Assembly: GCA_029821875.1 (NCBI GenBank)
Contig: JALGXW010000033.1
Coordinates: 1-45,781 of the forward strand
Source: Candidatus Hebobacterum abditum
Lineage (GTDB): Bacteria; Armatimonadota; Hebobacteria; Hebobacterales; Hebobacteraceae
Length of the DNA stretch: 45,781 bases
Reading direction: 5' to 3'
Shown piece after piece: positions 2,140-26,378 of the stretch. The notes under the pieces are model-generated. The model did not search any database. It was not told the DNA's origin and saw only the letters and a program-made list of their open reading frames with translations. Each line of letters starts with the position of its first letter. The stretch's first letter is position 1. The position numbers were made by a program, and so were the translations under genes.

Positions 2140-3324
2140 GTGCTCGTCGACTCACGGCGCATGTCCTCGAGAGAACGGATTATTGCCGCAATCCGGCGCG
2201 ATCCAGTCGATCATCTGCCATTGTGCTTCGATGGCATCGGCCACCAGGGAGTTGAGTTCCTATCCCGCCGCTATCCTGACCAGTTCGAACTGGCCCGTTT
2301 CTACCTCAACCTCGGTCTGGACGCCGGGGTGCGCACTGCTCCCCCGTACCACTCGCGGAAGGGATTCGAGACAAAGCAGTGGACAGACCATCCGGCAGAC
2401 GCCGAGTGCCCCCTGATCTTCAAGGAGTACGCCACCCCTCGCGGCACGCTGAGACAAGTGGTGCGCAAGGCACGCTATCCGTTCGCATCTGTCCCTTTGT
2501 TCGAGGATCATCATGTCCCTCCGGGACGTTCGCGGCAGTACTGCGTCGAACGGGAAGAGCATCTCGATGCGTTGGAGTGCATCCTTCAGCCGCCAACTTC
2601 CGAGGAGCTGGGCGAGTACCGTGAGCAGATGACGGCCGCGAGGAGGTACTGCAAGGACAACGGGATTCTGCTGTCGGGATACGCGCTGGGCATTGGTGAT
2701 CCGCTGTTCTGGCTTTCCGGCATCGAGCCGATCTTGGTGGCAGCGCTTGAAGATCCAGGCTTTCTGAAGCGATACGTCGATATACTCACGCGGTGGTCGT
2801 TGGCCATCTCGACGATTCAGATTGAGCACGGCGTGGAAGTCCTGGTCCGGCGGGGCTGGTATGAGAGCGCGGACTTCTGGTCCCCTGCGCTCTACCGCGA
2901 CTTCCTCTATGACCCGCTCAGGATCGAGATCGAGTTGGCACATCAGGCAGGGGTCGTCGTCAACTACTGCATGAACTCCGGCACGATGCCGTTGCTTGGC
3001 ATGTTCCGCGAGCTGGGATTCGACATCTACTCGCTCATCGATCCGACGGCAGGTGACACCGATCTCGTGAGCATCAAACGCGAAGTCGGCGACGCCATCA
3101 CTCTTTACGGGGGCGTGAGCAACCATCACGTCCTCGAGCGAGGAACGGCGGAGCAGGTACGGGAGGCCGTCGCCGCAGCCGTCGAGGTGCTCGCACCCGG
3201 CGGGGGGTTCATCCTGGGGCTGGGCGATGTGCTCGACTACACCATGAGCAATCCGGGGCTCGCCGAGCGAAACTTCTACGAGATGATCGAGGCCTGGAAG
3301 GAGTTGCGGCAGGACCTGTCCTAG
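2140..3324 (+). CDS. Uroporphyrinogen decarboxylase (URO-D) fold protein
   Basis: This 394-residue protein opens with SSRERIIAAIRRDPVDHLP, the typical entry of URO-D-fold methyltransferase-like proteins, and has the expected C-terminal barrel strands (ITLYGGVSNHHVL, GGGFILGLGDVLDY). The GTG at 2140 is chosen because GAGAGG sits nine bases upstream; an ATG at 2161 is the alternative. True uroporphyrinogen decarboxylases act in haem synthesis. The branch seen here is usually linked to corrinoid-dependent methyl transfer or is uncharacterised. In the metal site of the methyltransferases a His-x-Cys motif is expected; here the segment reads VNYC (Asn275, Cys277), so the His ligand is missing. It is followed after 45 bases by the aminotransferase gene and probably shares its transcript. 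Confidence 0.75.
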   Translation: MLVDSRRMSSRERIIAAIRRDPVDHLPLCFDGIGHQGVEFLSRRYPDQFELARFYLNLGLDAGVRTAPPYHSRKGFETKQWTDHPADAECPLIFKEYATPRGTLRQVVRKARYPFASVPLFEDHHVPPGRSRQYCVEREEHLDALECILQPPTSEELGEYREQMTAARRYCKDNGILLSGYALGIGDPLFWLSGIEPILVAALEDPGFLKRYVDILTRWSLAISTIQIEHGVEVLVRRGWYESADFWSPALYRDFLYDPLRIEIELAHQAGVVVNYCMNSGTMPLLGMFRELGFDIYSLIDPTAGDTDLVSIKREVGDAITLYGGVSNHHVLERGTAEQVREAVAAAVEVLAPGGGFILGLGDVLDYTMSNPGLAERNFYEMIEAWKELRQDLS

Positions 3325-3369: not shown

Positions 3370-4749
3370 ATGGCCACGCACAGAGAAGAACAGAGACTCG
3401 CCCTGCAGGGCGGCATGAAGGCAGTCGCCACCATTGAGGTCAGGGGCAGGCCGAAGATCGACACTGACGAGTTCATGGCCGTGGCAAGGCGGTTCGGCTT
3501 CTCCGCCAAGACGCTGAAGAAGATCCGCACGGCCGTCTCCAAGGAGGACATGGGCACGGGGCCGTTCCTCGCCAACTACTACTCCGACCTGAAGGAGACG
3601 TGCGTCCAGAAGTTCGAGCGGGCGGCGCGGGAGGCTTTCGGCGTCAAGCACGCAATCGGGGTCAGCTCAGGCACCGCCGCCCTACACGCTGCATTCGTCG
3701 CGGTCGGCGTGGGCCCCGGCACAGAGGTCATCTGCCCTGCGATCGGGTTCATGGCCACCGCCGCGGCCGTGACGGCCGCGAACGGAGTGCCCGTGTTCTG
3801 CGATGTGGATGAGTCGCTCTCCATGGACCCCGGGAAGATCGAAGGCCTTGTCACACAGCGCACGGTGGCCATTGCCCCCACCTGTGTGATGGGCAGCGTG
3901 CCTGACATGCGTGCGATCATGCGCGTGGCGCGCGAGCACAAGCTGAAGGTGGTCGAGGACTGCGCGCAGTCCTGTGGCGCAAGCTACAAGGGGAAGTTGG
4001 TGGGCACGTTCGGCGATGTCGGCTGCTTCAGCATCTCGGCCTACAAGATCGTAGGCGGGGGCGAGGGCGGTCTGATGATCACCAACAGCAAACGAGTGTG
4101 GGAGCGAGCCAGCCAGCTGGCCGAGTGCGGCGGCCTGTGGCGGCCGGACCGCTTCGCGCCACCGCGGTACGACGGAGAGCTGTTCCCGGGCACCAACTAT
4201 CGGATGAGTGAACTCGAGGCCGCGGTAGACGCGGTGCAGCTTCGCAAGATGGCCGGCGTCGTAAGACGCTTCCGCGCAGTCAAACAGCGGATTCTCAAGC
4301 GCCTGAAGACCTATCGAGAGATCAGACCGCAGACGCTGAACGATCCCAATGGGGAAGTGGGGTACATGCTGCGGTTCTGTCCCGAGAGGGTTCAACTCGG
4401 ACGCCGAATCGTCGCCGCTCTCAACGCCGAGGGTGTCTCGTGCGGGATGCGCGGCGAGGGGGCGGCCCCTGACTGGCACCAGTACTCGTGGATGTACCCC
4501 ATCGTATGCAAGACTGGACCCACAGATGTCAGCTGTCCCTGGGAGTGCCCTGTATACGTGCGGGCGGGCGGCGCCGTTGACTACGCTCGTGGCGACTGCC
4601 CCGTGGCGGACGACCTGTTCGATCGCGTCGTCACGATCCAACTCAACCAGTGGTACTCGGCGACCGACTGCCGCAACATCGCCAAGGCCATCAACAAGGT
4701 GCTCTCGGCCTACTGCACCGAAGACCCCGCCGCGACGAAGTGGTCTTGA
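3370..4749 (+). CDS. DegT/DnrJ/EryC1/StrS family PLP-dependent aminotransferase
   Basis: This 459-residue protein has AGGAGG nine bases before its ATG. Family landmarks: SSGTAALHAA at 99-108 (phosphate-binding turn), VVEDCAQSCGA with Asp197 contacting the pyridine nitrogen, FSISAYKIVGGGEGG with the PLP lysine at 226, and NYRMSELEAAV (dimer and substrate region). Members transaminate keto-sugars for amino-sugar synthesis or dehydrate and modify related substrates. The protein has an N-terminal extension of about 60 residues before the usual start and an insertion around residues 360-420, so it is longer than the typical 370-400. It sits between a URO-D-fold gene and a polysaccharide deacetylase gene in one operon, which points to modification of a sugar or glycan. 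The substrate cannot be read from the sequence. Confidence 0.85.
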   Translation: MATHREEQRLALQGGMKAVATIEVRGRPKIDTDEFMAVARRFGFSAKTLKKIRTAVSKEDMGTGPFLANYYSDLKETCVQKFERAAREAFGVKHAIGVSSGTAALHAAFVAVGVGPGTEVICPAIGFMATAAAVTAANGVPVFCDVDESLSMDPGKIEGLVTQRTVAIAPTCVMGSVPDMRAIMRVAREHKLKVVEDCAQSCGASYKGKLVGTFGDVGCFSISAYKIVGGGEGGLMITNSKRVWERASQLAECGGLWRPDRFAPPRYDGELFPGTNYRMSELEAAVDAVQLRKMAGVVRRFRAVKQRILKRLKTYREIRPQTLNDPNGEVGYMLRFCPERVQLGRRIVAALNAEGVSCGMRGEGAAPDWHQYSWMYPIVCKTGPTDVSCPWECPVYVRAGGAVDYARGDCPVADDLFDRVVTIQLNQWYSATDCRNIAKAINKVLSAYCTEDPAATKWS

Positions 4750-5720: not shown

Positions 5721-8700
5721 CTAGAACAGAGCCTCCACTGTGGTGGCGGCATCGAGCGAGGGAAGAACGACCCATTCCCGATCTGCGTCGAAAGAGTCCA
5801 CGGCCTGGCCGTTCACGAGCGCTCCCGTGAGGCGCGCCCTCTCTGGGTGGCGGAAGCGCACGATCACTTGGCGAGGGGGCTTGCGGGTGGGTGACTCAAT
5901 CCGCGCGACGATGCGTCGGCCGCCGTCCAAGCTCTGATAGCCGAGGCTCATGGGCCCGAAGTAGGTGGCGGCGTCGCGGATCGCCACCACCTCCTCGCTG
6001 CCCACCCACGCACGCGGGAGTCCACGCCCCAGGTAGAGCGTGTCGCCCACCTCCTGGATGAACATCATCCTCAGCCACATCGCCACCATCGCCTCGTCGG
6101 AACTCTTGAAGTGATCGCCTGCCCACTCGGACAGAGTGGGGAGCGGATGCTCGGCCATGGCGCGGATGTCGCGCCGCCAGCAGGCGGCGAACCCGTTGAA
6201 GAAGGCGCGCAAGAAGTGCTCTGTCTGATCCCGGTAGAGGTATGGAGGCGGGAAGTAGAGCAGGTTGGGCTGCATGCTGAAGCCGCCCCGAGAGAACCAT
6301 TCTCGCTCGAAGTCTTCCAGTGGGTAGTTGAAGGGCGCGTCAAGGTAGAGGTTGTCCTCGTAGTCCTGCAGGATCCACGTCGACTCCTGGCTGTTCGGGT
6401 CCAGCACGCTTGTGGTCAGACAGATGGCCCCCTCCAACACCTCGCGAATCCAGCCGACATCGCGCCCGCGCAGATAAAGCCGGGAGGGGAAGTGCGGAAC
6501 GTAGCTGCCATCCCGCAGCCGCACCACCGGGCAGCGAGACATGGATTCCCGGTAGCCGGCGAGCAGGTCCTCGCGGTAGGCCTCTGCCTCGCGCACGAGG
6601 CGCTCGCCCTCGGAATGCCCCACCTCGGCCAGGGCTTGGGCGGCCGCGTCCAGCCCGCGCCAGGTGAGGCAGTTGGTGGAGAGCCAGTAGTAGAAGTCCT
6701 TCACGTCCTCCAGCGACCCCGCCGGAAGGAATCCGTACTCCAGCACCCGCTTCCCCTCGGAGTCCGTGCGCTGCGTCTGCTGTCGCTCCCGTATCACCCA
6801 GTCACACCCGGCCGCCAGCTTGTCTCCTATCCGCAGCAGCCACTCTGCGTCCCCGGTGAAGCGGTAGTGCTCGGCCATCCCCCACAGCACCCATCCATGG
6901 TGCTGGTTGTAGTCTCCCATCTCGTACCCGCCGGACCCGTAGAAGATCCCCTCCTTGCTCTGGAAGTTGCCCGGCAGGCCGACCGTTCCCTGGTAGTGGA
7001 GGTACGTGTCGAAGTGTCGCCGCGCCTCGGTGTGGAAACCGCGTCGGTCCAGCTCCATGATCTGCATGGTCGCCTCGTTCGAGTAGTTGCCGTAGTTGAA
7101 CGAGCTGACCCGTCCCATGATCCGCTCTGATCCCACCTCGTAGTCATCGTTGATAAGAATGTGAGTCAGATGGCTCCGGTAGAAGTCGGTGATATCCTGA
7201 TCAGGGACCACGATCTCGGCGGCCTGGGCGAGGCGCTCTTCCCAGTAGCTCAGCACCTCCGAGCGGGAGCCCTCGAAGTCCATGGCCCGCAGAGACTCGA
7301 CTTCCGCGGAGTCCAGGTCGCAGACAAAGGGGATCTTCAGGACCAGGGAATGGCTCTCGCCCGGCCCGAGGCCAATGGAGTAGAGGAGATCATCGCCGGC
7401 CTGGGCCAGTTCTCCTCTGTCGCCAATATCGACGATCATGCGCAGATGCTCTCTGGGCGCCACCGCCCAGAGAGCATCGCCCCTGGTCGCGAGCTGCTCT
7501 CGATAGAGCGGCTCCTGCTGCCCGCCCAAGATGTAGCCCGCGCTTGCCCCCTCCGGGTACGCGACGATCGCAAGCGGCTGCGAGATCTTGGTAGCCGTCC
7601 CGCTGTTGTTGGCGAAGGTGAGTCGGCAGAAGCACGCGATCGGCGCGTCGGCCGCAATGGGGCCGGCGAGGACGCCCTGCGTCACTGGCGCCGCAAAGAC
7701 ATCCTGGTGCACATCGACGGCCCCGCGCGAGAAGCTCTGCATAAGGACCGGGAGGTAGTTCTGTGCCAGCCGGCGGCCAATGGGCAGCCATCCATCCCAG
7801 CCCAGGCGAAGACCGAAACCGCCGCCCTCCCATCCCAGTCGCTCCGTGTCCGCGCCCGGCACGCGACGAACGAAGCCCACCAGCGCGAAGATCTCCCCGG
7901 TGGGGGCTACGCCAAACTTCTGCCGCGCGCCCTCGCAGCCGACGATGGAATGCATCGGCTCCTTCGGTGGCTGTTCGCGCATCGCTCGCGCCAGGCTCTG
8001 CTCCGGCTGCTGCGAGATCGCCTCGTAACGAGTTGCACCGGTTGGGCGCGAAGCGAACTCGTTGTAGCTGAGCCGCCAGCCGGTCTCGCTCACCAGGACG
8101 CCGAAGCCGGGTATCCAGATGGGCTCGCCGTCGTCGAGGTCCTCTGGCCGGAAGGACAAGGCGAAGGCGTTGCTGCGAAGGGTGACGGCCGTGTGATCTT
8201 CGGACAACGGGCCAGGGCGCGCGCACGCCACTCGCAGGTGAAGCCGGGCGTCGCCCCGCTCCGGGGGATGCACGCTCTCGAGCACCCCGTTGTAGACCTC
8301 CACGGTGCCGTCCCACTCGGGCGCGGCGGCCTGCCCACACCCCATCTCCACCGTGATCGCTCGCCTCCGCAATCGGGTACTAGAGAAGACGGCGACCCGC
8401 GAAACCGGAGAGCTGCCCTCGGGAAGGCGGACCTGAAGCTGCATCGCCTGGCGAAAGCGAACGTTGTACTCCTCCCGCAGCTCGGGATGCTCGCCGCGGC
8501 CAAGGGGAGCAAACCGCACGGTGATCGCCCGTTCCTTCGCCCGCGCCACTGTGTCGGCCTTGCACCACTCCCCGTTGAACCAATCGTCCCGCGGCTTCCA
8601 GCCGAAGGAGCCGATGCGGCCCTGGCTGAGGTCGGCGAGCGTCAGGCGCTCCTCCGGCCAGTGGTCCTTCCAGTAGTAGATCCCAATGTCGCGGGGCTGC

Positions 8701-8828
8701 GGGAGCGGCTCCCCCTCTGCGAAGTGCAGCTCCATCCGGTGTATCTCCCGGGGCTCCTCCCAACGGAACATGAGAGTGCCGTCTTGCTGCTGTTCCCGAT
8801 ATGCGAACGGCGCGATGTCAAGCCTCAT
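5721..8828 (-). CDS. Large six-hairpin glycosidase-like protein
   Basis: This 1035-residue protein starts at the ATG at 8828, which has GGAGAAGG seven bases upstream and lies 22 bases after the stop of the methyltransferase gene; a longer reading into that gene is rejected. Residues 1-500 look like beta-sandwich material, beginning with a segment that resembles a discoidin-like domain (FRWEEPREIHRMELHF). From about 515 the sequence becomes helical with paired motifs typical of (alpha/alpha)6 glycosidases, including NYSNEATMQIMELDRRGF, EMGDYNQHHGW at about 636-646, and ENLYLDAPFNYP. A short beta domain closes the protein. This architecture occurs in families such as GH78, GH95 and GH127, but I cannot assign one. 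No signal peptide is visible, which would make it intracellular. Exact catalytic acids are not identified. Confidence 0.65.
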   Translation of the reverse strand: MRLDIAPFAYREQQQDGTLMFRWEEPREIHRMELHFAEGEPLPQPRDIGIYYWKDHWPEERLTLADLSQGRIGSFGWKPRDDWFNGEWCKADTVARAKERAITVRFAPLGRGEHPELREEYNVRFRQAMQLQVRLPEGSSPVSRVAVFSSTRLRRRAITVEMGCGQAAAPEWDGTVEVYNGVLESVHPPERGDARLHLRVACARPGPLSEDHTAVTLRSNAFALSFRPEDLDDGEPIWIPGFGVLVSETGWRLSYNEFASRPTGATRYEAISQQPEQSLARAMREQPPKEPMHSIVGCEGARQKFGVAPTGEIFALVGFVRRVPGADTERLGWEGGGFGLRLGWDGWLPIGRRLAQNYLPVLMQSFSRGAVDVHQDVFAAPVTQGVLAGPIAADAPIACFCRLTFANNSGTATKISQPLAIVAYPEGASAGYILGGQQEPLYREQLATRGDALWAVAPREHLRMIVDIGDRGELAQAGDDLLYSIGLGPGESHSLVLKIPFVCDLDSAEVESLRAMDFEGSRSEVLSYWEERLAQAAEIVVPDQDITDFYRSHLTHILINDDYEVGSERIMGRVSSFNYGNYSNEATMQIMELDRRGFHTEARRHFDTYLHYQGTVGLPGNFQSKEGIFYGSGGYEMGDYNQHHGWVLWGMAEHYRFTGDAEWLLRIGDKLAAGCDWVIRERQQTQRTDSEGKRVLEYGFLPAGSLEDVKDFYYWLSTNCLTWRGLDAAAQALAEVGHSEGERLVREAEAYREDLLAGYRESMSRCPVVRLRDGSYVPHFPSRLYLRGRDVGWIREVLEGAICLTTSVLDPNSQESTWILQDYEDNLYLDAPFNYPLEDFEREWFSRGGFSMQPNLLYFPPPYLYRDQTEHFLRAFFNGFAACWRRDIRAMAEHPLPTLSEWAGDHFKSSDEAMVAMWLRMMFIQEVGDTLYLGRGLPRAWVGSEEVVAIRDAATYFGPMSLGYQSLDGGRRIVARIESPTRKPPRQVIVRFRHPERARLTGALVNGQAVDSFDADREWVVLPSLDAATTVEALF

Positions 8829-8850
8829 AGTCAGCCTTCTCCAGTGGGGG

Positions 8851-10326
8851 TCAGCCCTCTTGATAGTCGAGCATGGGATTCCCGAGCGCCCACTCCTGGG
8901 CCGCCGTGGCGATGCGGTGCACCTCTGTCTCCTGCTCGGGAGAAAGCGGCCTGGGATGGTGAGTCGCCAGAATCTCCCGCGCCCGCTCGTTCGCCCGTTG
9001 GCGCATGTCTTTTCCTCCCGCAGCCGTCCACCCCGGATAGGTTTCACGGTTGGTGATCTTCGGGAACCAGAACTCCTTGCGCAGGTGCTTTGCGGTGTGG
9101 TCGTGGCCGAGGAAGTTGCCTCCTGGGCCGACCTCCCGCAGCACCTCCAGTGCCAGCGTGTCCTCGTTCACGTCGACGCCGCGCGTGACGCGGAAGGCTG
9201 CTCCGAGAATCTCATCGTCGATTACGCACTGCTCATAGGAGGCGAGCAGCATCTGCTCCATCATCCCCACCGAGAGATGGATGAAGTTCGTGCCGGCGAG
9301 CGCGTTGGTGAGCACTTGGAGCGCGCGCTCGTAACCGGCTTGCGCGTCGGGAATCGTGGCCTCGATCCCCGTGCCGCCCTGGAACGGAAGGCCGTAGAAG
9401 CGCGCCATCTGCGCGGTGGCTGCGTGGAGCAAGTTCGCCTCCGGAGCGGCCCCCGAGTACTGGCCGTTCGTCATGTTGAAGATGCCGGAGGCGATGGAGA
9501 AGATGCAGGGGCAGCCCGGGTTGACCAGTTGAGCGAGCGTGACGCCGCAGAGTACGTTCGCGCACTCCTCCACCAAAGCGCCAGCGATGGTGACCGGCGC
9601 CGTTGCCCCCACCATTGTGTCCACCTCGACATACAGAGGAATTCGGAGCCTCGCCGCCTCCATCAGCTCCTCGACCCGCTCCGCCGTCTGCACGAGCGGA
9701 CTGATGAGGCAGCAGACGATGGTGAAGATGGGCCGGCGGCTCACCTCCTCCGTGCTTCCCTGGATGACCGCCGCCATCTCCACCTGGTCGCGAATGCTGC
9801 GGCCTCCCTGCCCTTGGGAGTAGAAGTTGCGCGTGGTATGTGCCATGACGTTCGCGAACATGATCCGCTCGAAGCCGGGCTGGGCGATGTCCTGGGGAAC
9901 CACCAGAGAGTGCATGATGTGCAGGTTCTCCAGCCCGTCCTGAAGCCTTGTCAGGTCCACCAGGTCCTGGAGGGTGGCCTGCCGTCTCACGCCCTCCAGG
10001 TCGAGCACCTCCAGGGCACACGATCCTCCGATCGTGTAGATGCGATCGAGGTCAACGCTGACATCCCATTCCGGCGACTTGCCGTGGAGCGTGAAGCGGC
10101 TCGGGGCCGTCGTCAGCGCGCGGCGCAGGACATCCTCCAGGATGAAGACGATGCGCCGGTCGAAGTCCACCCGACACCCGTGGTCGCGGAACAGCGCCAG
10201 CGCGGGGGGATACTCCACCCTCACCCCCACCTCCGCCAACGCCGTCAAGGTGGCGGCGTGCACCTTGGCCATGGCGTCTTCGGACAGCACTTCGAGCTGG
10301 CCTCCAGTCAAGCAAGGGATTGACAT
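8851..10326 (-). CDS. MttB-family (trimethylamine methyltransferase-like) protein, no pyrrolysine codon
   Basis: The protein has 491 residues from the ATG at 10326, preceded by AGGAGG at good spacing. It matches the MttB family along its length: the early LSEDAMAKVHAATLTALAEVGV, FYSQGQGGRSIRDQVEMAA, the central GCPCIFSIASGIFNM and GAAPEANLL blocks, GTGIEATIPDAQAG, and the C-terminal FLGHDHTAKHLRKEFWFP. Family members move a methyl group from a quaternary or tertiary amine to a corrinoid protein. Methanogen trimethylamine enzymes carry pyrrolysine at an in-frame TAG; this frame has none, so it belongs with the non-pyrrolysine branch (MtgB, MtpB, MtcB types) acting on betaines or similar compounds. 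No corrinoid protein or its activator is next to it; instead it is followed by a giant glycosidase-like gene. Confidence 0.85.
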   Translation of the reverse strand: MSIPCLTGGQLEVLSEDAMAKVHAATLTALAEVGVRVEYPPALALFRDHGCRVDFDRRIVFILEDVLRRALTTAPSRFTLHGKSPEWDVSVDLDRIYTIGGSCALEVLDLEGVRRQATLQDLVDLTRLQDGLENLHIMHSLVVPQDIAQPGFERIMFANVMAHTTRNFYSQGQGGRSIRDQVEMAAVIQGSTEEVSRRPIFTIVCCLISPLVQTAERVEELMEAARLRIPLYVEVDTMVGATAPVTIAGALVEECANVLCGVTLAQLVNPGCPCIFSIASGIFNMTNGQYSGAAPEANLLHAATAQMARFYGLPFQGGTGIEATIPDAQAGYERALQVLTNALAGTNFIHLSVGMMEQMLLASYEQCVIDDEILGAAFRVTRGVDVNEDTLALEVLREVGPGGNFLGHDHTAKHLRKEFWFPKITNRETYPGWTAAGGKDMRQRANERAREILATHHPRPLSPEQETEVHRIATAAQEWALGNPMLDYQEG

Positions 10327-10634
10327 GAGGGTCGCCTCCTTGTCGTGGGGTCTGCGGCCCCGCCTTCTCCGGCCCACCGTATGCGCGGCCGCAGGCGCCG
10401 GGCACGCGCAAACCTACCTGAGCACGTTCTGCGCGCGTACTGGCAGACTCCTTTCCATATGACGTGAGACAGCCCGCGGGTATCGAGCGCCGGGCGAGGG
10501 ACACCCAGCCCTCCAGGTCGAAGACAGTGCACCGGCATCGCCGCATTCGGCGGCACGGCCTCTCAGAGGGACATGCGCCCCTTGCCGTCCGCCTGAGGCG
10601 AGCACACGCAGCCGAGCTGTCGGAAGGAGATGTG
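10327..10634. other. Divergent intergenic region between methyltransferase and amidohydrolase genes
   Basis: This 308-base region should contain promoters in both directions because the flanking genes diverge. A palindrome GCCGC-ATTCG-GCGGC lies near 10538-10552. No clean -35/-10 pair was found. Short open frames here show shadow composition only. Confidence 0.4.
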
Positions 10635-11735
10635 ATGGGCGACTTCATGGATATCCAGCCTTCGGACTGTCACTTCCACGTGTGGGGCCTTGACGGCATT
10701 CCAGACCTGATGGAGATAGTCAGCGCGTCGGGGCTGCGCAGCGTCACCATACTCTCGGCCGCACTCATGGGTGACAAGAGCCTGAACCAGAACTGCATGG
10801 GGCTGTTGGCGAAGGCGCTGCACCCCGGAACGATCTACTCCTTCGGATGCCTCTGGCATCCGCGGACTGGCACCGTGCAGGACCCCCTGAGCTACGAAGA
10901 ACAGGCGCGCGGTCTGGTCGAGGCCGGGTGTGATGGGATGAAGATGCTCGAGGGCAAGCCGACGGAGAGGAAGGCGCTGGAAGAACCCCTGGACTCCCCG
11001 GACTACGACGCGTATTACGCGTATCTCGAGACGGAGGACATTCCCATCCTCTACCATGTGGCCGACCCGGAGACATTCTGGGACCCGAACGCGCCGAAGG
11101 AGATCCGCGAGGGGCCCTGGTTCTACGGTGGCGGAGGCTACCCGAGCAAAGAGCAGATCTATGGAGAGATGGAACACGTGCTGGAGAAGTTCCCAGGGCT
11201 GTGCGTCGTCTTCGCGCACTTCTACTTCCTCTCGGCCGATCTCGAAAGAGCGGCGGCCTTCCTCGACAAGTGGCCGAACGTGAACCTCGACCTCACGCCG
11301 GGCGGCGAGATGTACTGGAACTTCTCCAAGGACACGGAGCGGTGGCGTGAGTTCTTCATCAAGTATCAAGACCGGATCTTGTTCGGGACGGACAACATGG
11401 CCGGAAGCGGGGCCTACGAGATGAGCAAGGAGGATGCCGTCGCCAAGATCCGGGGGATGAGGACGTTCCTGGAGACGAACCGAACCTTCGACTGGCTGGG
11501 CGGACAGCAGCACGGCATCGGCCTGGAGCCGGACGTTCTGTCCAAGATATACTGCGACAACTTCAGCCGGTTCGCAGGCCGCGCGCCTAGGTCATTGGAT
11601 GTCGGGCGAGCGATCGACCAGTGCGAGCGTATGGTCGCACTGGCCCGGACGAGCCCGGAGCAGGACGAAATCATACCCGAGCTGGTGACCATTGGGGGCA
11701 AGCTTCGCGAACTGCAAAGCGCGAAAGCCGGCTAG
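10635..11735 (+). CDS. Amidohydrolase (amidohydro-rel/TIM-barrel) family protein
   Basis: The protein has 366 residues from the ATG at 10635, with GGAAGGAG just upstream; longer in-frame readings lack a ribosome site. Metal-dependent amidohydrolase-2 landmarks appear in order: DCHFHVWG with His13 and His15, YHVADP, VVFAHFYFLS, and ILFGTDN with Asp253 as the final metal-binding or catalytic acid. Members decarboxylate or hydrolyse small acids and lactones; several act on sugar-acid lactones. The predicted protein is cytoplasmic. It heads a plus-strand run with a DUF4091 protein and a uronate-dehydrogenase-like enzyme, so a lactonase role on a sugar acid fits the neighbourhood. That is inference from position, not from any diagnostic residue. 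Confidence 0.75.
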   Translation: MGDFMDIQPSDCHFHVWGLDGIPDLMEIVSASGLRSVTILSAALMGDKSLNQNCMGLLAKALHPGTIYSFGCLWHPRTGTVQDPLSYEEQARGLVEAGCDGMKMLEGKPTERKALEEPLDSPDYDAYYAYLETEDIPILYHVADPETFWDPNAPKEIREGPWFYGGGGYPSKEQIYGEMEHVLEKFPGLCVVFAHFYFLSADLERAAAFLDKWPNVNLDLTPGGEMYWNFSKDTERWREFFIKYQDRILFGTDNMAGSGAYEMSKEDAVAKIRGMRTFLETNRTFDWLGGQQHGIGLEPDVLSKIYCDNFSRFAGRAPRSLDVGRAIDQCERMVALARTSPEQDEIIPELVTIGGKLRELQSAKAG

Positions 11736-12236: not shown

Positions 12237-14051
12237 ATGGAGGCAGTTCACATCCTGGATTCGATCATCCCGCTCTCCGCCTGCATGATTCTGCTGGTTG
12301 CGATGCTGGGCGGCCTCGCCGGGAGCGGGCTCCGTCGCCTGTGGGCCGTGGAGGATGGCGAGAAGATCCTCCGCGAGGACCTGGAGAATCCCCTGAAGTC
12401 GGGGGAGGGCAACTCGGTCTGGGATGGCCGGAGCGTCAAGCTCGCCGCCGCCCGCAACGAGATTGTCGCCTTCCAGCTGATCCTGGAGGCTGACGAAGAG
12501 GGCGCCAGGGGGGTGAATGTCAGCGTATCCGATCTGATGCGCGGCCCGGCGAAGATCCGCGGGAGCCATCCGCTGCCAGATCCGAACGACTACGTGGGAG
12601 TCGGTGTCGAGCTTTTCACCGAGCACTATCTCCACATCACCACCCCCTCCTGGTATGACGAACACGACCAGGGCTGGTACTGCACTACGGCAGCGAACCC
12701 GAACTTGACCGGATGGACGCCGGACGCCTTGATTCCCTTCAGCGCGAAGGAGGGGCGGGGCGGTGCACCGTTCGACATCTCAGCCAACAGCAATCAGGGC
12801 GTCTGGGTGGACGTCTACATCCCCAAAGACGTGCCCGCCGGGACCTACGAGGGGTGCATCGAGGTGATGGTGCGCGGCTCCCAGGCCGCCGATGTGCCAA
12901 TCCAGCTCCAGGTCCTCGACTTCGAGCTACCGGAGGCGAATCACTACCGGTCGATGATCTACTACAGCCCGGAGAACATCGCCGCTCGCCACGGTCTCGA
13001 GCCGGGGCCTGAGCTGACAGAGATGGTTCTCAGGTATCACCGAATGGCCCATCGCCACCGGCTCGAGCTATTCGGCGAGGGCAGTTGGGACGAGTTGCAG
13101 GCGCTGAGAGGGACGCTCTCCGGCGCCGCGTTCACCAGGGCCGCGGGCTACCAGGGGCCGGGCGAGGGCCTCGGCAACACCATGTACTCCGTCAACACCT
13201 ACGGGCGTGATCTTCCACAGCGCGAGGACGACTACAGGGCCGAGTCCGACCGCTGGGTCAGGTGGTTCGAGCAGAACGCGCCCCAGGTCGACTACTTCAT
13301 CTACTTGACGGACGAGCCGAAGCCAAGCGACGAGGACATCGTGCAATGGATAAGGCAGCGAGCGGACTGGATTCACAACAATCCGGGTCCAGGACGAAAG
13401 CTGCCGGTCTTCATCACGGTCCAACCGCACGAGGTGCTAGTCGGCGCGGTTGACATCTGGTGCACTGTCTCCCCCCGATACCCCCTGGAGGCGGTGAGGG
13501 CGGCAGAGGGGCGAGGCGAGCCAGTCTGGCTCTACTGCGGCATTCGCCCGTACACTCCCACCGACATGATTGACGAGCACGGCGTCTCCTTCCGTCTCAA
13601 GCCCTGGGTCGCCCACAAGCACAACATCTCCCGGTGGTTCACATGGGAGAGCACCCACTGGTATCCAAACCACAACGAGAGCCCCAACGACCGGCCGAAG
13701 AACATCTTCGTCGATCCGGTCACGTTCACGGGCGGGACGCCCGCGGGGACGGGGCATGGAGACGGCACCCTGTTCTATCCCGGCCAGGACAAGGTCTTCC
13801 CGGAGCAGGATCGCGGCGTCGTCGGTCCGCTCAGCTCGGTCCGTCTGAAGATGTACCGGCGAGGCGTCCAGGACGTTGAGTACATGTGGCTGGCCGAGCA
13901 GACGGGATACGGCGATGAGGTCCGCGCTCTCGTCTCCAGCGTCTACCCCGACGACATGTGGACTCCCTCGCCCGTGCCCCGCTGGTCCACCCGGAATGCG
14001 GACTACGAGAGGGCGCGACGGCGCCTCGCAGAGCTGATTCGGGGGGACTAA
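12237..14051 (+). CDS. DUF4091 / glycoside hydrolase 123-like exported protein
   Basis: This 604-residue protein starts at an ATG with GGGAGG ten bases upstream. Residues 10-30 are hydrophobic (LSACMILLVAMLGGLAGSGL) and act as a signal peptide or membrane anchor. A beta-sandwich follows (GVWVDVYIPKDVPAGTYEG), then a TIM-barrel-like catalytic region with YLTDEPKPSDED, where Asp359 and Glu360 correspond to the acidic pair used in GH123-type substrate-assisted catalysis. The C-terminal GDGTLFYPGQ and SSVRLKMYRRGVQDVEYMWL blocks are the DUF4091 hallmark. GH123 enzymes cleave beta-N-acetylgalactosaminides; most DUF4091 relatives are uncharacterised. The product is likely periplasmic or surface-bound and fits with the other glycan-degrading genes in the window. 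Confidence 0.8.
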   Translation: MEAVHILDSIIPLSACMILLVAMLGGLAGSGLRRLWAVEDGEKILREDLENPLKSGEGNSVWDGRSVKLAAARNEIVAFQLILEADEEGARGVNVSVSDLMRGPAKIRGSHPLPDPNDYVGVGVELFTEHYLHITTPSWYDEHDQGWYCTTAANPNLTGWTPDALIPFSAKEGRGGAPFDISANSNQGVWVDVYIPKDVPAGTYEGCIEVMVRGSQAADVPIQLQVLDFELPEANHYRSMIYYSPENIAARHGLEPGPELTEMVLRYHRMAHRHRLELFGEGSWDELQALRGTLSGAAFTRAAGYQGPGEGLGNTMYSVNTYGRDLPQREDDYRAESDRWVRWFEQNAPQVDYFIYLTDEPKPSDEDIVQWIRQRADWIHNNPGPGRKLPVFITVQPHEVLVGAVDIWCTVSPRYPLEAVRAAEGRGEPVWLYCGIRPYTPTDMIDEHGVSFRLKPWVAHKHNISRWFTWESTHWYPNHNESPNDRPKNIFVDPVTFTGGTPAGTGHGDGTLFYPGQDKVFPEQDRGVVGPLSSVRLKMYRRGVQDVEYMWLAEQTGYGDEVRALVSSVYPDDMWTPSPVPRWSTRNADYERARRRLAELIRGD

Positions 14052-18802: not shown

Positions 18803-19918
18803 ATGGAGAGGGCCGTCGAACGAGGACTGGACTGGGCAGGACTGCCCGTGATTGCGACCGTGGCCCGGCTGCTGTGCCGGGAACTGACACTCCGGAACGA
18901 GTATCTCCGTTTGGAGAACAGGATTCTCAAGGAGAGGGTGCCGGGGACAATCCGGTTCACAGACGAGGAACGCCGATCGCTGGCTGAGGCGGCGTTGGCG
19001 ATGGGCCGATCGCTGATGAAGGAAGTGGTCAGCATCGTCAAGCCCGAGACCATCCTGGCCTGGCAGCGCCGCCTGGAGCGTAACAAATGGGACTACAGTG
19101 AGCGCCGCAGGCGGGGCCCGGGCCGGCCGCGGACACCGGACGAGATTGAGGCCTTGGTCTGCCGGCTGGCACGGGAGAATCTCTGGGGGTACGAGCGCCT
19201 CCGCGGCGAACTGCTCAAGCTTCACGTCGTGCTCTCCAAGGGCTGTATCGCGGACATCCTGCGCCGCAACGGGCTGCCACCCGCTCCCCAGCGCGCGGGC
19301 CTGACCTGGCAGCAGTTCCTCTCTCGCCGCGCCGAAGTGATGCTGTGTGCTGACCTGTTCACCAAGGAGGTGTGGACGCTGTCTGGGCTCAGGACGGCCT
19401 ACGTGCTGTTCGTGCTGCACCTGAGCACGCGCCGCATCGTACTCGCCGAGGCCACCTTCTCTCCTCATGGGCAGTGGATGGGCCAGATGGCCTGCAATCT
19501 GCTCATGGACTGCGAGGACCTGGAGATCGCCCCGCGCTTCGTCCTGCATGATCGGGATAGGCTGTTGGCCTGGGACTTCGACGGGGTCCTCACGACGGCC
19601 CGTTCGAAGGTGGCGAAGACGCCCTTTCGCGCTCCCGATGCTAACGCAGATGCGGAACGCTGGGTGCGGAGCGTGACGGAGGAATGCCTGGACCACCTCG
19701 TGTTGGCCGGCTTGGGGAGTTTACAGCGGGCGTTGCGGATCTACCAGGACTTCTTCAACAGCCACCGCCCCCATCAAGGGATCGGCAACCAGATACCGGA
19801 GCGCCTACGTGCCGGAGAACCGGACCAGACGCGCGACCTGCCACAGGCGGAACTCACAGTGGAGTGTGAGCAGTTCCTGGGCGGCCTGCTCAACTCATAC
19901 TACCGGAAGGCCGCGTAG
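18803..19918 (+). CDS. Transposase, DDE integrase-core type
   Basis: This 371-residue protein starts at the ATG at 18803, eight bases after GAGAGG; a GTG nine bases earlier is less well placed. An N-terminal helical DNA-binding region includes IVKPETILAWQRRLE and the GRPRT linker. The catalytic core shows ADLFTKEVW (first Asp), VLHDRDRLLAWDFD (second Asp region), and ADAERWVRSVTEECLDH (Glu), followed by SHRPHQGIGN. It would cut and join the 16-bp ends of the surrounding element. No frameshift is needed and no second gene is present. It is clearly related to the fragment at 1-279 and shares the C-terminal GGLLNSYYR ending. Confidence 0.92.
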   Translation: MERAVERGLDWAGLPVIATVARLLCRELTLRNEYLRLENRILKERVPGTIRFTDEERRSLAEAALAMGRSLMKEVVSIVKPETILAWQRRLERNKWDYSERRRRGPGRPRTPDEIEALVCRLARENLWGYERLRGELLKLHVVLSKGCIADILRRNGLPPAPQRAGLTWQQFLSRRAEVMLCADLFTKEVWTLSGLRTAYVLFVLHLSTRRIVLAEATFSPHGQWMGQMACNLLMDCEDLEIAPRFVLHDRDRLLAWDFDGVLTTARSKVAKTPFRAPDANADAERWVRSVTEECLDHLVLAGLGSLQRALRIYQDFFNSHRPHQGIGNQIPERLRAGEPDQTRDLPQAELTVECEQFLGGLLNSYYRKAA

Positions 19919-21554: not shown

Positions 21555-23576
21555 CTACAGGCGCCCCTGGGTGAGGAGTGCCACGATGGACCAGGTAGCC
21601 GCGTTGAGCAGGTCCCCGACGACGAGGCCGATCGCGAGGGGGATCGTCCTCCGATAGGGCCGCAGGCCCCCGTAGCGGACCACCAGAGACTTCGCGAGCC
21701 AGCCGACGAGAAAGGGCATGTAGTACCAGTGCATAGACCAGGTGTTCGCGGCGATGTAGCCCACGGGGTGCAAGGGCCACCACCAGAAGCGGAGACGCAT
21801 GGCCCCCAAGAGGATGGCGAAGGCCCCTCCGCCGAGGAAGGCGAGGGCCCCGTTGGGGTCCGGCTTGGCAAACTGGGGATCGGCGAGAAGTGCGAATATG
21901 CGATTGCCATCCAACAGGGTCTGAGGTCCTATCCATTGAACGTTCGCGATCGCGCATCCCATGAATCCATAGCGATGCATGCCCTCCAAGACGACGAAGA
22001 CCCCCACACCCAAGGACAGCAGGAAGCCTGCCACGATTGCGGGTGTCAGGCGTCGGGGGCTGATCTGCGCGGAGTCGGCGACCTTGAAGGTCTCCAGCAC
22101 ATTCGCGGGGAGCGTGTCCCATCCCAGGGAGCCCCCTGGCTGATAGGTCCAGCGCGCGGAGATGAGACTGACGATCTCACGAGGTCGAAATGCCGCGCTC
22201 CCCAGAGGTACTACCATAAGGTCTTGGATGTTGATCGGGAACTCCAGAAAGCCCAAGCCGGTCTCGGCCCGCAGACGGGCCCACATCACGTAGTAGCCTA
22301 CTACCATCGTCACCAGGATCAGCCCGAAGATCACGCGGCACTCGGCGAGGACGAAGAAGTACACCATGAGGGCGGACGAGAACACCAGTCCGATCAGTGA
22401 CCAGCGATAGGGGAGTGGCTCTCTAGCGTCTGCGCCCGCGGGGCTCCGGCCGAGAGCGGTCTCCACGGCTCGCCTGAGATGGTGGCGTGCGGTCCAGAGC
22501 ACCCAGACCAGGAGGGCGAAGACAGCCCCGGCCCCCTGGTAGTAGGGGGCTGGAAAGGAGGTGCTGAACCAGCTTTCTGTCGGCTGGGCGGTGGCGCCGG
22601 CGGCGATTGCGATCACCGTCAGGCCGAGGCGAACGAGATGGAAGAACCAGACCGAGAAGGACAGCTCTTTGGGGATCAGATAGGCGATGGCGATCATCCA
22701 GGGCCAGAGAAGGAACCAGATCGCACCAATGCCGGCGAGGGGGCCCTCTCGGGGCAGCTCGACGAGGGTCGCCGGTCCCAGGGGTATCGCGGGTACCGCT
22801 GGCACAAACTCCGACAGCCTGTTCATGAAGCTCAGCAACATCGAGACAACTACTCCCAGCCAGAAGAGCGGCGCTGCCGTCAGTCGAGCACCCCGGACTC
22901 GCCCGCCCGCCTGTGGCTCCTTCACCATCTCCAGCGGGATCTGGGCGATGGGAAAGGTGAGGCGCTCGTTGCGGATCCACTGGCGCTGGAGCAGAACCAT
23001 CAGGCAGAAGGTGGCCGAGAATAGGCACAACTCAAACGACAGCCACGCGGCCAAGGGCCCAGACCACTGAGCCCATGGGACTTGGGCTCCTCCCTCGAAG
23101 AAGGCCGCCACCGCAGCTGGCTCGCTGGGAGCGAACCAAGTGGGCACATGTTGCAGGAAGGTGGTCTCCCACAGGGGGTTCAACCGGGCGCTGTAGTAGT
23201 AGGCGACGTTGTGGCCCAGCAGCCACACTAGAAGGCCCTTGCTAACCAAAGGGCTTCCCACCAGCAGAATCGAGTAGACCACCAGTAGTTCGCGGCGGCT
23301 GAAGCCGACGCGACGGAGGAACGGCGCTCCGGCCGCGGCGGCGAGCAGGAACAAGAGGACCACCGGGGCCATGGAGGGAGTGTAGGTGGCGAAGCAAAGA
23401 GCGCGGTGCCACGCGATCTCGACATAGAAGGCGGCCGGAGCGATCAGCACCAGTAGCACAACAGCGACGAGCACGGCGCGGGCGGTCACCCCACCAGCTG
23501 CGTCCTCTCGTCGGGCCTGTGAGGGGCCTGTCTCGCCGAGGCCTGTGCCCGGCCGATCGTCCCACGATGGCAGCAC
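21555..23576 (-). CDS. DUF6785-type polytopic membrane protein (copy A)
   Basis: This 673-residue protein starts at a GTG at 23576 with GGAGG five bases before it. After a charged N-terminus of about 30 residues come at least ten hydrophobic segments, starting with AVLVAVVLLVLIAPAAFYVE. Landmarks shared with the copy at 44001 include FYVE(I/V)AW, QRQWI, PAIPLGP, LWPWMIAIAYLIPKELSFS, FPAP(Y/R)YQG, VWARLRAETGLGF and MRLRFWWWP(L/F)HP(V/I)GY. The family resembles oligopeptide-transporter-like proteins in size and topology but has no known function. It follows the pseudopilin gene after 91 bases with a strong hairpin between them, and precedes a GH39-like gene by 46 bases. Transport of glycan fragments is a reasonable but untested idea. 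Confidence 0.8.
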   Translation of the reverse strand: MLPSWDDRPGTGLGETGPSQARREDAAGGVTARAVLVAVVLLVLIAPAAFYVEIAWHRALCFATYTPSMAPVVLLFLLAAAAGAPFLRRVGFSRRELLVVYSILLVGSPLVSKGLLVWLLGHNVAYYYSARLNPLWETTFLQHVPTWFAPSEPAAVAAFFEGGAQVPWAQWSGPLAAWLSFELCLFSATFCLMVLLQRQWIRNERLTFPIAQIPLEMVKEPQAGGRVRGARLTAAPLFWLGVVVSMLLSFMNRLSEFVPAVPAIPLGPATLVELPREGPLAGIGAIWFLLWPWMIAIAYLIPKELSFSVWFFHLVRLGLTVIAIAAGATAQPTESWFSTSFPAPYYQGAGAVFALLVWVLWTARHHLRRAVETALGRSPAGADAREPLPYRWSLIGLVFSSALMVYFFVLAECRVIFGLILVTMVVGYYVMWARLRAETGLGFLEFPINIQDLMVVPLGSAAFRPREIVSLISARWTYQPGGSLGWDTLPANVLETFKVADSAQISPRRLTPAIVAGFLLSLGVGVFVVLEGMHRYGFMGCAIANVQWIGPQTLLDGNRIFALLADPQFAKPDPNGALAFLGGGAFAILLGAMRLRFWWWPLHPVGYIAANTWSMHWYYMPFLVGWLAKSLVVRYGGLRPYRRTIPLAIGLVVGDLLNAATWSIVALLTQGRL

Positions 23577-24944: not shown

Positions 24945-26378
24945 CTACCCGTAGCCGAGCTCGCGTTCGGTCTCTGCAATCGCATCCTCGATCATCTCAA
25001 GTCCCTTCAGGGCGAGTTCCGGCGACATGATGATGGGCGGCGACATCCGGAGAATGTGCCCTGCGGGAATCCAGGCTAGTCCCTTCTCAAAGGCCCTCTG
25101 ATAGACGCGGGCGCCTGCTTCGTCGAATGGCTCCTTCGTCCTCTGGTCCTTGACAAGCTCGATGCCGAGCAGGCAACCCTTGCCCCGCACATGGCCAATG
25201 ATCGGATGGCGGCGCTGCATCTCGTGCATCCGCGACAGCATCAACTCGCCGAGCATGGCGGAGTGATCGAGAAGGTTCTCCTCCTCGATTACCTCGATTG
25301 CTGCAAGCGCCGCCGCACACGCCATGGGGTTGCCTCCGTATGACGTCGAAGCGCTGATTCTCTCGACTGCCTCGGAGTACGGAGCGCGTGCGATCATGGC
25401 CGTCACCGGGAAGCCATTGCCGAGGCCCTTCCCTAAGGTGACGACATCCGGCACGACATCCCAGTGCTCCATGCACAGCCACGTCCCCGTGCGACCCATG
25501 CAGGTCAGCACCTCATCGGCCATCAAGAGGAGACCCCGGTCATCGCAGAATCGCCGAAGCTTGGGGAAGAAGTCGTCAGGGGGGAAGACGGAGCCGGCCC
25601 ATCCCTGCACGGGTTCCAGGACGAAGGCTGCAGCCTTGCCCGCCGTCCCCTCGCGGAGATACTGATCGTAGTAGGCGAGGTACGCATCAGTGTCGATCGT
25701 GCCGTCTGGCTTTGTCCAGTGCGGACGGTAGGGGTCGGGGCGAGGGAGCATATGAAAGCCCGGAGCACGAGTCGGCCCGTCGGTCCCCTTGAAGACCGCG
25801 CAGCTCACCGCCCCCAGTGTCTTCCCGTGGAAGTCACGGAAGCAGGAGAGGAACTCCCACTTGTCAGTGGCGGCGCGGCAGAGGCGCATACCTGCCTCGA
25901 CTGCCGTCGTTCCCGAATCGTAGAGCTGCATACCGGACAGATCCCCGGGCAGCACCTGCTCGAGTTTCTCGAGCAGTGCCACCTTGATCGGCGTCGTGAA
26001 GTCATGACAGTTCATCAACGTATGAGCGTACCTGGCCACAGCTTCACTGACCTTCGGGTGGCAGTGCCCCAAGCTGGTCACGTAGATCCCGGAGGAGAAG
26101 TCGAGGTAGGTGTTGCCGTCCACATCGGTGAGGCTCACGCCCTCGCCCTTCTCGAACACGACCGGGAATAGCCGAACTTGGCTCGAGTAGCCCTTCATCA
26201 GACGGCAGGCGCGAGCATGGAGCTCTTGAGACCGAGGCCCCGGCACCCCCGCGGTCACCATATGTGGGAAAGCTGCCGAGCTCATGGCAGGCCCCTTGGG
26301 CGAGGCAGGCATACCCGTTCCCCTCGGCAGTCCAGATGCAGAGATCGGCGCATTCTCAGACCTGGTGCTGTCGCTCAT
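24945..26378 (-). CDS. Class III PLP-dependent aminotransferase
   Basis: This 477-residue protein has the class III pattern: GVSLTDVDGNTYLDFSSGI, LYDSGTTAVEAGMRLCRAAT, RDFHGKTLGA, LEPVQGWAG, LLLMADEVLTCMGRTGTW with Asp288, and TLGKGLGNGFPVTAMI with the PLP lysine at 317. Typical substrates are omega-amino acids such as 4-aminobutyrate or ornithine, or amino sugars. The first 40 residues are extra and proline-rich, and the start at 26378 overlaps the end of the creatininase-family gene by 23 bases, which suggests translational coupling; an internal Met near residue 23 or 32 is possible. Cytoplasmic. Together with the amidohydrolase before it, it could use an amine released by that enzyme. Confidence 0.85.
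   Translation of the reverse strand: MSDSTRSENAPISASGLPRGTGMPASPKGPAMSSAAFPHMVTAGVPGPRSQELHARACRLMKGYSSQVRLFPVVFEKGEGVSLTDVDGNTYLDFSSGIYVTSLGHCHPKVSEAVARYAHTLMNCHDFTTPIKVALLEKLEQVLPGDLSGMQLYDSGTTAVEAGMRLCRAATDKWEFLSCFRDFHGKTLGAVSCAVFKGTDGPTRAPGFHMLPRPDPYRPHWTKPDGTIDTDAYLAYYDQYLREGTAGKAAAFVLEPVQGWAGSVFPPDDFFPKLRRFCDDRGLLLMADEVLTCMGRTGTWLCMEHWDVVPDVVTLGKGLGNGFPVTAMIARAPYSEAVERISASTSYGGNPMACAAALAAIEVIEEENLLDHSAMLGELMLSRMHEMQRRHPIIGHVRGKGCLLGIELVKDQRTKEPFDEAGARVYQRAFEKGLAWIPAGHILRMSPPIIMSPELALKGLEMIEDAIAETERELGYG

Follow-up and report, generated by a model that had tools for sequence, protein, structure and literature searches.

The window analysed here is a stretch of 45,781 nucleotides from the genome of Candidatus Hebobacterum abditum, a sediment-type, uncultured bacterium (G000; 4.3 Mb in 103 contigs). 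It encodes an MttB-superfamily methyltransferase, P0001, on the minus strand at 8851..10326. The reading frame comprises 491 residues without internal stops or pyrrolysine, and residues 10-469 align to positions 30-488 of the 500-position Pfam MTTB profile (PF06253) with 366.8 bits (cut-off 25). The second gene, at 5721..8828 on the same strand, encodes P0002, a 1035-residue protein with the predicted fold of six-hairpin glycosidases. The two genes are separated by an intergenic gap of 22 bases (8829..8850, minus strand) with a ribosome site ahead of P0002, and GGAG-type ribosome sites precede both genes alike. In the gene order given by a simple in-house gene caller, the gene beyond P0002 (4785-5618) and the amidohydrolase gene upstream of P0001 (10635..11735, plus strand, PF04909; scanned as 10629-11735) lie on the opposite strand to the pair. 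P0001 and P0002 look like a two-gene unit, because the flanking genes run the opposite way. An amidohydrolase homologue is likewise divergent from the MttB gene in the same-genus genome G001. Frames, PF06253 match and fold model all agree with the original prediction of an MttB-family gene lying 22 bases upstream of a large glycosidase-like gene, and the strands of the neighbours are in keeping with the operon it proposed.

Several other genes of the window deserve description. A URO-D or MtaA/CmuA-like protein, possibly a second methyltransferase, is encoded on the plus strand at 2140..3324 (PF01208, 56.5 bits, cut-off 23.9). It was not accepted as mtaA_cmuA, the score against TIGR01463 being 42.3 bits, below the cut-off of 235.4. 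A DegT-type aminotransferase gene identified by profile scan lies at 3370..4749 on the plus strand. A class III aminotransferase gene (24945-26198) was kept apart from those found near relatives of P0001, because identity to them is only 28-32%. The stretch 18803-19918 gives a weak integrase-core match (rve_3) and is perhaps a mobile element. DUF6785/DUF6784 genes are located at 21555-23489 and 44001-45779, the second assigned by BLAST grouping only; such a gene lies within 600 bases on the same strand of 7 of the 90 MttB genes surveyed below. Profile search found no B12-binding or B12-binding_2 domain on the contig of the window, and the remark that no corrinoid gene accompanies P0001 there was correct.

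P0002 matches no Pfam family at E 0.001 and matches NCBIfam only weakly (25.9 bits, cut-off 820.7). Its AlphaFold2 model, built from 16 homologues, has a mean pLDDT of 84.5 and a pTM of 0.86, and matches (alpha/alpha)6 glycosidases and phosphorylases with a best Foldseek E of 4.3e-14. VIA-align places about 300-580 residues on (alpha/alpha)6 enzymes with Z values of 21 to 26. The predicted fold is thus like that of glucoamylase and of GH65, GH78, GH94 and GH95 enzymes, from which P0002 differs in its lack of a Pfam family and its weak NCBIfam match. The structural matches tie across many GH families, with a methylmannose polysaccharide hydrolase (7qsj, Z 24.2) among the top rows, and so no GH family is named for P0002. 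E585, D660, D708, D773, D822 and D825 are among the invariant columns of the 16-homologue alignment. No signal peptide is visible by eye, which suggests that P0002 works inside the cell; it is apparently cytoplasmic. The description as six-hairpin glycosidase-like is borne out at the level of fold by the model and both structural searches, and P0002 is probably glycosidase-like, with a predicted catalytic activity.

A corrinoid protein is encoded elsewhere in the genome. G000 contains nine MttB genes, corresponding to nine PF06253 matches at E up to 1e-20 (11 at a looser threshold, two genes being split). PF02607 matches one protein, on contig C57 (G000:C57:174851-175438). It is a compact MtxC-type corrinoid protein of 207 residues with PF02607 and PF02310 domains and a DLHDIG motif. 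Its nearest PDB relatives are 1y80 and MttC (7xcn), and its best model is MtgC (211 bits, below the cut-off of 370), with metH at 122.7. The gene directly follows a RACo-type reactivase gene, and the surroundings contain genes for SAM synthetase (metK), deformylase (def), formyltransferase (fmt) and a signal peptidase. Similar surroundings are found in G006, G012, G018, G056, G058 and partly in G002, though some of these stretches are truncated or lack individual genes. The stretch of RACo-type reactivase, compact corrinoid protein, def and fmt is conserved in several genomes of the phylum (L106:7928-10468, which is G000:C57, and L119, L120, L124, L126 and L127), together with metK where this gene is not cut or missing. 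This arrangement hints at a role of the reactivase and corrinoid genes shared with methionine or SAM supply.

The other parts of a methyl path are dispersed over G000. RACo-type reductive activators are encoded at C57 and C40. Two stand-alone pterin proteins pass the methyl-THF:corrinoid methyltransferase model PRK07535 (cut-off 259), at C15 (334.9) and at C40 (280.2), the latter next to two CdhD-domain proteins, a RACo-type protein and an acetyl-CoA synthase protein. At C64, a homocysteine S-methyltransferase-type protein is encoded by itself; PRK08645 and BHMT-type models score above metH for it, all below cut-off. No MetH-length PF02607 frame was found in G000, and in G020 and G031 the homocysteine domain lies inside MetH-length frames. 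The scattered corrinoid, reactivase, pterin and acetyl-CoA synthase parts therefore point to a methyl path in scattered form. These parts presumably work together, and the C57 corrinoid protein may well serve P0001. The original prediction of an MttB protein without a corrinoid partner is not supported, given the C57 pair and the pterin methyltransferases at C15 and C40. As a main reading, an orphan MttB or a corrinoid-independent role is weakened by the corrinoid-reactivase pair at C57 and by relatives of P0001 with a corrinoid gene directly upstream. P0001 is probably no orphan and would most likely be served by a shared corrinoid hub.

PF02607 has no match in G001 or G005 by profile search. 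The contig of G001 breaks off 5 bases after the second reactivase match and that of G005 directly after it (0 bases), and the corrinoid gene expected next would consequently fall off the contig. L125:5371-7141 (G006:C252) encodes a second, divergent corrinoid protein beside a gene that resembles URO-D distantly (25% identity); the two may form a further system for methyl transfer.

The original prediction read the missing neighbour as a missing partner on the grounds that corrinoid and reactivase genes are usually adjacent to MttB genes, an argument that loses its force in these genomes. The 90 MttB genes surveyed come from 28 of the 61 related genomes and occupy 86 of the 87 loci that were fetched; an MttB fragment of fewer than 150 profile columns (G006:C83) was left out. 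Neighbours were identified with small profiles of our own on six-frame open reading frames, and all counts are minimum values wherever a contig or a fetched stretch breaks off. A corrinoid gene is located within 600 bases on the same strand of one of the 90 genes, and within 6 kb, as far as the fetched sequence reaches, of two. With one gene in 90 so placed, scattered genes are the rule, and a missing corrinoid neighbour is not evidence for an orphan enzyme.

Two described systems resemble this arrangement. In Eubacterium limosum, according to the accessible part of the report, several MttBs use one corrinoid protein encoded elsewhere, and the system of MtpB, MtcB, MtyB, MtqC, MtqA and RamQ is like that of G000 in that corrinoid, reactivase and tetrahydrofolate methyltransferase genes lie away from the MttB genes (PMC8604678). 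Unlike E. limosum, G000 has its corrinoid and reactivase genes side by side in the vicinity of metK, def and fmt, and pairs several MttBs with glycosidase-like genes. Corrinoid sharing was demonstrated in E. limosum (PMC8604678, same part), whereas for G000 we infer it. In Ruegeria pomeroyi, one corrinoid protein serves both methionine synthesis and demethylation through MtgB, MtgC and MtgD, as far as the available text describes it (PMC12478193). G000 is similar in having one compact corrinoid protein together with stand-alone pterin and homocysteine-type proteins, but dual use of the corrinoid protein, described in that precedent, is a presumption for G000. The class Hebobacteria, assigned to Armatimonadota by NCBI, has been described, in the main text of PMC10290634 as available, as having the Wood-Ljungdahl pathway and inhabiting hypoxic to anoxic habitats; the words methyltransferase, trimethylamine, betaine, corrinoid, MttB and GH4 do not occur in that main text.

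Among solved structures, P0001 is closest to 9yce and 2qne, annotated as glycine betaine or putative methyltransferases (E about 1e-86, about 33% identity). These MtgB entries share with P0001 the superfamily, the absence of pyrrolysine and a near full-length alignment, but P0001 belongs to a separate clade. P0001 was rejected as a pyrrolysine trimethylamine methyltransferase: it scores 408.9 bits against TIGR02369, below the cut-off of 525, its frame lacks an internal stop, and the Pyl334 position of MttB corresponds to Ile321 (MAFFT) or Gly320 (phmmer). The pocket positions used for mapping are those of Methanosarcina barkeri MttB, as given in the accessible text of PMC9842639. Superfamily and corrinoid protein type of P0001 and C57 are like those of the M. 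barkeri MttB-MttC pair; unlike MttB, P0001 has no pyrrolysine, and phmmer and MAFFT agree in aligning Met249 with Asp236 and Tyr364 with His350. The mapping of Gly110/Thr111 is ambiguous between Gly101/Ser102 (phmmer) and Ser102/Cys103 (MAFFT).

Six residues of P0001, H139, E234, E253, N257, C274 and H301, are invariant in 37 clade rows among the matches listed, four duplicate contigs included. The same letters occur in 0-7% of 86 other MttB rows. The position of N257 is occupied by Glu in 84 of these 86 proteins, MtgB and MttB included. A Glu that is nearly universal in other MttBs is thus absent from the clade, which carries one at E253, four positions before. H139, E234, E253, N257 and H301 differ from MtgB and MttB alike. 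Relative to MtgB, the changes are A/L to E234/D236, L to E253, E to N257, G to H139, I to H301 and L to H350. By alignment, several residues of P0001 at mapped pocket positions differ from MtgB and MttB.

The clade was delineated from the best 80 of 544 relatives, of which 32, at 47% identity or more, belong to it; four of these 32 loci (L197, L198, L200 and L224) apparently belong to genomes already included in the 61. On a quick tree with long branches, from which four duplicate loci were dropped, the clade comprises 33 rows among the matches listed and has an SH-aLRT of 100. Record names, in which MAG labels may err, assign its members to Armatimonadota, Planctomycetota, Lentisphaerae, Anaerolineae, Spirochaetes and others. 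A corrinoid gene lies directly upstream of the MttB gene in 5/32 loci among the matches listed, the identity of the L216 protein being confirmed with Pfam. These five loci form one subclade and may count as one event, which weighs against the explanation favoured below. Identity between the corrinoid protein of C57 and three of the five proteins (L208 was left out and L266 not compared) is only 42-46%, which likewise counts against it.

The neighbours in the clade loci were grouped by BLAST, and one member of each family was scanned, as was one of two permease families. Among the matches listed, an SBP_bac_1 family occurs in 11/32 loci and the permease families in 10/32 each. An IolO-like epimerase family and an M24 (creatinase-like) family are each present in 9/32, a LacI family in 6/32, an Asp/Glu racemase family in 4/32 and a ROK family in 2/32; the one epimerase relative scanned scores 227 bits, below the cut-off of 300. 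By the small profiles, the fetched stretches contain a class III aminotransferase gene in 12/32, some cut by contig ends, a URO-D-type gene in 11/32 and a DegT-type gene in 5/32, the last 32-37% identical to that at 3370..4749 of the window. Such neighbours suggest that a sugar-like and perhaps aminated compound may be taken up and degraded. In L217, L219, L220, L221 and L222, from Anaerolineae or Chloroflexi, two divergent MttBs and a URO-D-type gene surround sugar-type ABC transporter genes. L224, L225 and L226 share a recurring unit in which the MttB gene is accompanied by genes for a class III aminotransferase, a short-chain dehydrogenase and a cyclase-family protein; one of the records is named Candidatus Zipacnadia. 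A protein of 333 residues at L216:12666-13667 has no family match, and its PDB matches are at E 0.7 or worse.

The pairing of MttB with glycosidase genes is recurrent. Homologues of P0001 and P0002 are adjacent in four genomes of three genera in one family (G000, G001, G002 and G006). The pair is full length in G000 and G001, whose MttB is 93% identical to P0001; in G002 the match to P0002 is confined to residues 1-485, and the contig end truncates the MttB gene of G006. Four of the eight genomes of the family contain both genes and four, 55-91% complete, contain neither (two-sided p = 0.029, inflated by shared ancestry). A further case is L209 from Anaerolineae, in which a clade MttB gene and a gene for a relative of P0002, 34% identical over 956 residues, share a cluster with corrinoid, GH42, class III aminotransferase, isomerase-type, transaldolase-type and FucI-type genes. 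The pair is thus not unique to this genome, and the pocket residues of P0001, as mapped, differ in part from those of MtgB and MttB. On the other side, a P0002-like gene occurs in 3/32 clade loci among the matches listed, two of which (L197 and L198) come from P0001's own family; the fetched stretches of the remaining 29 lack one. Among the 61 genomes, 31 have a P0002 match (E up to 0.001) and 7 have a member of the P0001 clade (49% identity or more). The clade and P0002 are therefore not generally tied, which, like the 29 loci, counts against a functional link between the two.

The link to glycosidases extends beyond P0001 and P0002. Six of the nine MttB genes of G000 directly adjoin a glycosidase-like gene on the same strand, namely P0002 at C45, GH4 genes at C37 and twice at C82, a GH20-like gene at C102, and a gene at C7 that groups by BLAST with the window gene 12237-14051, itself a GH123 match. 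In the survey, a GH4 gene lies within 600 bases on the same strand of 13 of the 90 MttB genes, compared with 0.33 expected on either strand from per-genome totals if genes are placed at random and each takes up 1,100 bases, related pairs not being independent. GH4 pairing requires 8 changes on the tree, at least 6 of them forced by starred branches, so several MttB subfamilies share the habit. The MttBs next to GH4 genes fall in other subfamilies, the clade of P0001 not being among them, and this too counts against extending the habit to P0001. They are divergent-subfamily MttBs at L107, L110, L111, L128, L129, L132, L135 (two), L147, L149, L164, L168 and L173. Four GH4 proteins were scanned; the alpha-galactosidase-type model PRK15076 is the best for each, with the cut-off passed in one. 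The expectation that MttB-glycosidase pairs recur is therefore supported by the four genomes, by L209 and by other subfamilies with GH4, GH20-like and GH123-like genes. Titles and abstract starts in the literature searched, a scope without subscription journals and preprints, contain no description of glycosidase-paired MttBs.

These observations are best explained by corrinoid-dependent demethylation of a sugar-linked compound, a reading to which we give a probability of about one half. The quaternary-amine-bearing sugar or glycan of the original prediction is one candidate for this compound, which the findings neither favour nor disfavour. P0002 would help to release the compound inside the cell, and P0001, a member of a distinct MttB clade, would take the methyl group off it by corrinoid-dependent transfer. 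The methyl group would pass to the C57 protein, the single compact corrinoid protein encoded in G000, which the RACo-type reactivase encoded next door would keep reduced. A stand-alone pterin methyltransferase, from C15 or C40, would then move it to tetrahydrofolate, and methyl-tetrahydrofolate could enter the Wood-Ljungdahl pathway or methionine synthesis. The direction of this flow, the catalytic activities of P0001 and P0002 and the class of substrate are what we infer here.

The same genes can be read in other ways. P0001 might be an ordinary quaternary amine methyltransferase for glycine betaine or another carboxylated amine that shares a corrinoid protein, with the glycosidase incidental or co-regulated only. 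Glycine betaine methyltransferases are its nearest relatives of solved structure, other MttBs without pyrrolysine use carboxylated quaternary amines or phosphocholine in the part of PMC12155760 available, and the same scattered gene layout serves betaines in E. limosum in that of PMC8604678. The clade-invariant residues that differ from MtgB and MttB, the pairing with P0002 kept in four genomes, and the sugar-type transporter, LacI and sugar-isomerase-type genes of the clade loci nevertheless make this unlikely. Less probable still is that P0001 removes the methyl group of an O-methylated sugar or cyclitol, an ether, instead of one on nitrogen. D236, H350 and the nearby E234 could serve to bind hydroxyl groups or to protonate the oxygen that leaves, and the IolO-like epimerase relatives in 9 of the 32 loci listed would suit such a substrate; against this, the pocket was mapped by alignment only, the class III aminotransferases in 12 of those loci point to an amine, and the characterised MttBs named in the accessible parts of the cited papers act on methylated nitrogen. 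Finally, the Asn257 of the clade, where 84 of the 86 other MttBs compared have Glu, might mark a fold repurposed with loss of corrinoid methyl transfer. The strong overall PF06253 match of P0001 and the upstream corrinoid genes in 5 of the 32 loci listed, all of one subclade, render this very improbable.

To our knowledge, most MttB-superfamily proteins lack a known substrate. The enzyme of PMC12155760 is presented in the available text as the sixth member with an identified physiological substrate, and that text names methylated amines as substrates. More broadly and only tentatively, Hebobacteria-type Armatimonadota and their relatives may possess a carbohydrate-linked branch of MttBs. Several of its subfamilies, including the P0001 clade with its moved glutamate, would demethylate sugar-borne methyl groups (on methylated amino sugars, cyclitols or glycosides) exposed by partner glycosidases, and would pass the methyl groups to one corrinoid protein, which may have a second role in methionine synthesis. 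The MttB-glycosidase pairing suggests a little-studied route for removing methyl groups from sugar-linked compounds, and offers concrete candidate methyl donors. If glycosidase-paired MttBs do act on sugar-linked methyl groups, the superfamily would reach into carbohydrate breakdown in anoxic habitats.
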